Shown here: piece after piece, positions 18,089 to 25,849 of the stretch | How positions within the stretch are numbered: position 1 is the first letter of the stretch | Layout of the letters: the number at the start of each line of letters is the position of its first letter | Source: an uncultured Clostridium sp. | GTDB taxonomy: Bacteria; Bacillota; Clostridia; TANB77; CAG-508 | Direction of reading: 5' to 3' | Assembly (NCBI GenBank): GCA_947165355.1 | Contig: CAMUZZ010000007.1 | Location: forward strand, 1 to 45,246 | Length of the DNA: 45,246 nt | Notes under the pieces: generated by a model | The model's database searches: none | What the model saw: only the letters and a program-made list of their open reading frames with translations | What the model was told of the DNA's origin: nothing | Made by a program: the position numbers and the translations under genes

Positions 18089-18100
18089 ACGAATTTTGAA

Positions 18101-18323
18101 GACGCTTCAAAATATCTTAATCATTACGCAGATATGTAAAAAGTATATACATAAAAATAGCGAACCTTACTGGTCGCATTTGTTATTAGAGTTGCATCTT
18201 TATTTTAGGTAAATGATTTAAGAAATGTTACGGTTATTTACACATGCTCCCAAACTGCGCGGTTCTTTATTTTTATGTATATACTTTTTACTTTGCAATT
18301 AATTTGAAATATTTTGAAGTGTC
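18101..18323. ncRNA. Structured intergenic element, copy 1 (candidate novel RNA)
   Basis: In the 364-base gap between divergent genes. Outer arms 18101-18115 and 18309-18323 pair over 15 bp with one G.U if read on the plus strand. An internal loop follows, then a perfect 24-bp stem (18136-18159 with 18268-18291), a 2x2 loop, GAACC/GGTTC (18162-18166 with 18261-18265), a conserved asymmetric loop and GCAT/ATGC (18176-18179 with 18244-18247). The apical part is about 60 AT-rich bases. The blocks 18161-18179 and 18242-18270 are identical in copy 2 at 25634-25849, while the arm sequences differ and remain self-complementary. I do not recognise a known RNA family. The single wobble weakly favours plus-strand transcription. 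Confidence 0.7.
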
Positions 18324-18336
18324 CGAAAAATTCTTA

Positions 18337-25633: not shown

Positions 25634-25849
25634 AAGATTTTGATATTATATACCTTTTTAAACTACAGAATAAAAAACATATATATATAATATCGAACCT
25701 TACTGGTCGCATGTATTATTAAAGTACCAAACAAATTATATCTATATTATTTAAGATACTTTACGTTTAATTTATACATGCTCCCAAACTGCGCGGTTCT
25801 TTATTATATATATATGTTTTCTGCTTTCAGTGAACTATATCAAAATCTT
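25634..25849. ncRNA. Structured intergenic element, copy 2 (candidate novel RNA)
   Basis: Fills most of the 342-base gap between pth and rng. Outer arms 25634-25646 and 25837-25849 pair perfectly over 13 bp. After an internal loop, a perfect 19-bp stem (25674-25692 with 25802-25820) leads through a 2x2 loop to GAACC/GGTTC (25695-25699 with 25795-25799) and GCAT/ATGC (25709-25712 with 25778-25781). Blocks 25694-25712 and 25776-25804 are identical to copy 1, while the stems have different sequences that are again self-complementary. The 63-base apical region shares only patches (ATTTAAGA, TTACG) with copy 1. No reading frame of note lies inside it. Confidence 0.7.

Follow-up and report, generated by a model that had tools for sequence, protein, structure and literature searches.

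In the attC sites of integrons it is the pairing rather than the sequence that is kept, mismatches stand at fixed places and the terminal structure varies, and in these respects they resemble the element described here. REPINs, and REP sequences with their RAYT transposases, are alike in being short, intergenic, dispersed, hairpin-forming and non-autonomous (PMC3116915; PMC2817692), and some copies of the element are nested in GGGACGG palindromes. Bacterial MITEs and other small palindromic repeats are multi-copy, non-coding, intergenic sequences with inverted-repeat arms and with sites that are empty in relatives (PMC2229807; PMC10969869), all of which applies to the element. REP palindromes are, in addition, known targets of insertion sequences (PMC1525189). 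Finally, template switching during replication generates multibase compensated changes and has been proposed to maintain the hairpins of RNA genes (PMC8794818); between the arms of an inverted repeat, it homogenizes the arms and inverts the spacer (PMC8604942). We believe, at somewhat better than an even chance, that the element is a MITE-like palindrome, mobile but non-autonomous, built around a hairpin core that is asymmetric and conserved.

The window analysed is a stretch of 45,246 nucleotides from an uncultured Clostridium sp. (GTDB Clostridia; TANB77; CAG-508), and it contains two copies. As the preliminary description had reported, block A (CGAACCTTACTGGTCGCAT) occurs exactly at 18161–18179 and 25694–25712, and block B (ACATGCTCCCAAACTGCGCGGTTCTTTAT) exactly at 18242–18270 and 25776–25804, all on the forward strand; shuffling gives an expectation of zero chance matches for either block. 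In copy 1, block A forms the 5′ side of an asymmetric core, with columns that are invariant over 26 copies, and block B forms the 3′ side. The interior between them (18180–18241, forward strand) is variable, its length ranging from 7 to 80 nt over the family, in which interior classes were compared. An inner left arm that is shared with other copies (18136–18166, forward strand, 31 nt; 86% identical to a copy on contig C13) runs into block A and is 94% complementary to the inner right arm (18261–18291, forward strand). Beyond these, the outer left arm (18091–18120, 30 nt) is 80% complementary to the outer right arm (18304–18333), and neither is found elsewhere in the genome. The nested inverted repeats that had been claimed for 18101–18323 are present, as they are in copy 2, but the paired region of copy 1 is wider, forming a palindrome of two inverted repeats at about 18091–18333, of which only about 18132–18304 aligns with the other copies in the genome. 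Copy 2 (25634–25849; 56 bits with covariance model R1) likewise has two arm pairs, the inner at 25674–25699 and 25795–25820 (26 nt, 92% complementary) and the outer at 25634–25646 and 25837–25849 (13 nt, 100% complementary). The arms of the two copies are unlike each other and still pair, with mismatched loops at corresponding positions, as had been noted.

The earlier suggestion that these are copies of a dispersed structured element was borne out when R1, a covariance model used with a cut-off of E ≤ 0.01, was run on the window genome, an 893-kb partial assembly that is 67% complete. It returned 25 matches, so the two window copies are two of about 25 in the same genome and are not due to chance. 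Allowing up to three mismatches, block B occurs 13 times in the 893 kb, and not once when read backwards; CTCCCAAACTGCGCG, which lies within block B, occurs 17 times. R1 also found matches in 9 more of 59 genomes of the GTDB family, including G052, of the same genus as the window genome, and G022, G031, G049 and G051, in which the core is altered. Of 385 genomes from the order, 13 contain the exact string CTCCCAAACTGCGCGTC; the shorter CTCCCAAACTGCGCG was absent from all of 390 other genomes sampled within the class Clostridia. Overall there are about 20 further carrier genomes; they are patchily distributed and mostly multi-copy, and those in the whole-genome sets all belong to one GTDB family. 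Scanning GTDB contigs added at least several further carriers; among the matches listed, those with both blocks and paired AT-rich arms are Firmicutes-type MAGs, many of them labelled Clostridia or Clostridium. Viral carriage was considered and rejected, viral contigs having no exact long block and nine looser matches that lacked paired AT-rich arms. Consistent with the earlier remark that no Rfam family was known to have these blocks, nothing exceeded the gathering threshold in the window or at 20 further loci; searching at E up to 10 gave only sub-threshold matches of E 2.8 or worse, none of them credible. The core strings had no occurrence that we could find in the open-access literature.

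The constant core comprises 25 letters, and the long arms are free in sequence yet complementary. The core reads UU(A/G)C-UGG-UC-G ... C-UC-CCA-AACUGCGC, which gives an asymmetric 4x8 internal loop, a 3-bp helix and a UC/UC 2x2 loop, bounded inward by a short stem with a variable loop and outward by the free-sequence arms. In an alignment of 26 copies, in which the interior loop was shortened, pairing covariation was 0.528, compared with 0.169 (sd 0.017) after shuffling, a control that removes relatedness effects only in part; not one shuffle out of 500 attained the observed value, and sliding the pairing by 1–3 columns gave at most 0.273. When one copy was taken from each of 21 genomes, Watson–Crick pairing of the arms in fixed register was 0.66, against 0.43 when shuffled. 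The two arm positions adjoining the core take four pair types in nearly all copies. Three copies in G031, which have the same centre, are each short of one base in the UGG strand and one in the CCC strand, jointly. RNAalifold, applied to the two largest interior classes, supported only the UGG/CCA helix and the short inner stem. We conclude that the core is a real folded motif, whose sequence is kept only in the loops and the 3-bp helix, and that the paired structure proposed in the preliminary description is real.

Before the R1 search we had gathered 64 distinct copies, and all of them lie outside predicted genes. Sixty have two neighbours: 40 are in co-directional gaps (19 sense and 21 antisense), 12 in convergent gaps and eight in divergent gaps. 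The preliminary description had fitted copy 1 exactly between two divergent promoters. Copy 1 does lie between divergent genes, but copy 2 is between co-directional ones, and the divergent arrangement is that of only the eight copies just mentioned. The counts argue against a role as UTR or terminator and against any strand-specific function tied to the neighbours. A regulatory or terminator-like intergenic element is accordingly very unlikely: although the copies are intergenic, and some of them (L028, L055) adjoin or sit in intrinsic terminators, convergent gaps are not preferred, neither strand is favoured, and relatives lack the element at the same genes. No gene family recurred beside the copies, where only scattered housekeeping-type genes were common to three or four loci, and no mobilizing protein was found in their neighbourhoods; across genomes, Y1 was the sole candidate compared.

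Complementary arms that differ in sequence had been taken as the mark of a functional RNA, and such a family, with copies transcribed as long hairpins whose core binds a protein and spread by an unrelated duplication process, would account for several of these observations: the covariation above both shuffled and slid controls, an invariant core flanked on both sides by freely varying helices, and the joint base loss in G031. Selection on an RNA strand should, in addition, tolerate G·U, which arises from A-U and G-C pairs, above A·C, the other-strand product of the same mutations. One outer pair near the core conforms to this (five G·U and no A·C). Overall, however, the excess is absent: isolated arm mismatches were G·T in 24 cases and A·C in 21, and with one copy per genome the figures were 13 for G·U and 18.5 for A·C. 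Changes on one side are also almost nil, since 152 paired-arm cells in the 26-copy alignment were altered on both sides and three on one side. Together with random strand relative to genes, the lack of an Rfam match, a patchy multi-copy distribution with empty sites, and flanks that differ among copies, so that a shared promoter is not evident, these findings make a functional RNA family unlikely, and the step from covariation to RNA function is unsupported. No specific evidence points to such a function, although the core may still have a role as RNA.

Paired changes with few one-sided ones are what is expected from template switching between inverted-repeat arms (PMC8794818; PMC8604942). The related arms of L055 and L143 differ at six paired positions, all of them compensated and none one-sided. 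The argument that a transposon would have kept its terminal repeats fails if inverted-repeat arms homogenize together in this way. An inverted centre was found at one orthologous site, where the copies in G240 and G091 have the same orientation, and that in G402 (L229/L190) has its centre inverted relative to the orthologous L231 and L232, and one arm altered; G402 is closer to G091 (95.6%) than to G240 (92.9%), yet its centre is inverted relative to both. We infer that template switching, and not RNA selection, probably keeps the arms complementary. The published cases share with ours the concerted arm changes, the scarcity of one-sided changes and the spacer inversion; they deal with RNA genes and with coding sequence in yeast, whereas our hairpin is itself repeated and dispersed, and its core is fixed. 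Pairing by itself cannot separate an RNA from a DNA origin. The element is a clear example from nature of strong covariation that does not in itself imply a functional RNA, because pairing can persist at the DNA level. This has consequences for ncRNA discovery pipelines, in which compensatory changes are taken to prove that an RNA is functional.

Empty sites were found in several relatives. In G286 the entire insert is missing from the site that is filled in G240, G091 and G402, and the L142 insert of G204 is absent from G426 and G456, whose flanks are about 94–95% identical to those of G204. Inserts L143, L154, L155 and L161 are absent from relatives at lower identity. Near-identical copies occur at unrelated loci: the three G031 copies with the same centre are so placed, as are three near-identical copies in G049, and a single MAG, RGIG9027, has four copies with near-identical centres and a sharp outer boundary, GTTAC...GTAAC. 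Two copies in G270 have that same boundary, and G049 also has sharp shared ends. Copies in the window genome, apart from those in the palindromes described next, each have outer arms of their own, which blurs the boundaries of the unit.

The palindrome GGGACGGTTCTGTTTGACA...TGTCAAACAGAACCGTCCC is found in the window genome in two states, empty (for example, L172, L174 and L176) and with the element at its centre (L171, L175, L177 and L178). This recalls the mid-palindrome insertion of sequences that target REP palindromes (PMC1525189), although the element has no transposase gene and several of its empty sites have no long palindrome. L028 and L086 also lie within GGGAC-type palindromes, that of L028 in an apparent intrinsic terminator (GTCCTCGCAG...CTGCGAGGACTTTT). 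In related genomes, GGGGACGG motifs flank Y1 transposase genes on both sides in inverted orientation (L342, L343, L345, L346 and L347). Because this is the layout described for REPs and RAYTs (PMC2817692), we read GGGACGG palindromes as REPINs (PMC3116915), and the GGGGACGG motifs appear to be the REPs that belong to this family's RAYT-type transposases.

It might then be supposed that the core is cargo, riding in GGGACGG REPINs that Y1 transposases (RAYT) move, as the GGGACGG motifs around Y1 genes and the GGGAC palindromes that enclose four window-genome copies and several elsewhere would suggest. We give this little probability. Most window-genome copies have other outer arms, several carriers have no detectable Y1 gene, and none of 30 Y1 loci examined had a copy of the core, whereas GGGACGG flanks the Y1 genes there. 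Y1 was present in 8 of 14 carriers and, where the exact core is absent, in 19 of 30 genomes, a rough comparison that includes incomplete genomes and some, such as G052, in which R1 later matched copies. As RAYT/Y1 does not co-occur with the element and its loci lack the core, it was rejected as the mobilizer. The element also differs from REPINs in that its core is not a short GC-rich REP doublet and has a long, asymmetric, conserved loop.

It is just as doubtful that the element is a folded-DNA recombination site like attC, on whose single-stranded hairpin a recombinase would act and in which the variable interior would be the terminal structure. Paired arms of free sequence, mismatched loops at fixed places and an interior of such variable length all agree with this, and so does a tandem array of three hairpins with a 91-bp period in G052. 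That array contains no genes, however, and the neighbourhood survey, with its lack of any recurring gene family, revealed no integrase or cassettes with the element. The element has, moreover, a long conserved asymmetric core, and the core sites of attC are far shorter. The array occupies 234–492 of L372 (contig C6); only its third hairpin has a full complementary right arm, and 5S rRNA-like sequence lies about 80–230 bases upstream.

Our preference for a mobile palindrome is based on the dispersed, multi-copy and patchy family, its empty orthologous sites and the near-identical centres at unrelated loci, on intergenic copies placed at random with respect to strand, on the filled and empty GGGACGG palindromes, and on the concerted arms, the inverted centre in G402, the lack of G·U bias and the joint base loss in the G031 core helix. 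Against it are the failure to find a mobilizing protein in the loci surveyed, a Y1 distribution that does not track the element, inconsistent target duplications, the blurred unit boundaries in the window genome, and the fact that free arms around an internal loop of conserved sequence would equally suit an RNA–protein site. If the element is mobile, an enzyme supplied in trans would recognize the core in its folded form, be it a hairpin of single-stranded DNA or a cruciform, and would move it, often into or along with other palindromes such as REPINs. Replication template switching, by copying one arm onto the other, would then be the main reason that the arms stay complementary, and may also flip the centre of the hairpin. 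The family is apparently an unrecorded, new kind of MITE-like mobile palindrome with an unusual constant centre, in a large and little-studied group of Clostridia, and a partner protein of the conserved core can be sought directly. The element differs from bacterial MITEs (PMC2229807; PMC10969869) in that its constant part is central and its arms do not appear to be terminal repeats of constant sequence. Our searches, beside the copies and, for Y1, across genomes, also turned up no transposase as a parent, and target duplications were not consistent.

Possible target duplications are AATAAA (6 bp, L142), TTCTAA (6 bp, L388) and GTTAAAAT (8 bp, L059); their lengths vary, and none was clear at several other loci examined. 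At the L142 site, the empty sequence is GATGATG-AATAAATCTAAG, and AATAAA stands on both sides when it is filled. Comparison of TTTTAGATTTATT with the native AATAAATCTAA at this single locus suggests that the outer arms were made at insertion by copying one flank. In the window genome, the copy-specific outer arms might derive from target palindromes, copied flanks or old captured palindromes. Purely palindromic targets were rejected as a general rule, since several empty sites have no long palindrome. A more particular mechanism, which we hold to be unlikely, is that a recombinase reads the shape of the folded single-stranded core, whatever the arms, and inserts it into the centres of other palindromes, and that every round of fold-back copying adds new flank to the two arms, leaving no conserved ends.

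At the site of the L142 element, G469 (L283) and G239 (L284) have another palindrome, ATGTCCCC...GGGGACAT, and the site is possibly a hot spot for palindrome insertion. Near 1500–1560 of L407 (G031, contig C16), a lone arm without a core lies upstream of a run of GTGGTA-type repeats. In the flanks of L083, L032, L062 and L386, immediately beyond the element, there is a direct repeat of its left or right arm, which looks like the product of slippage or of repeated insertion.
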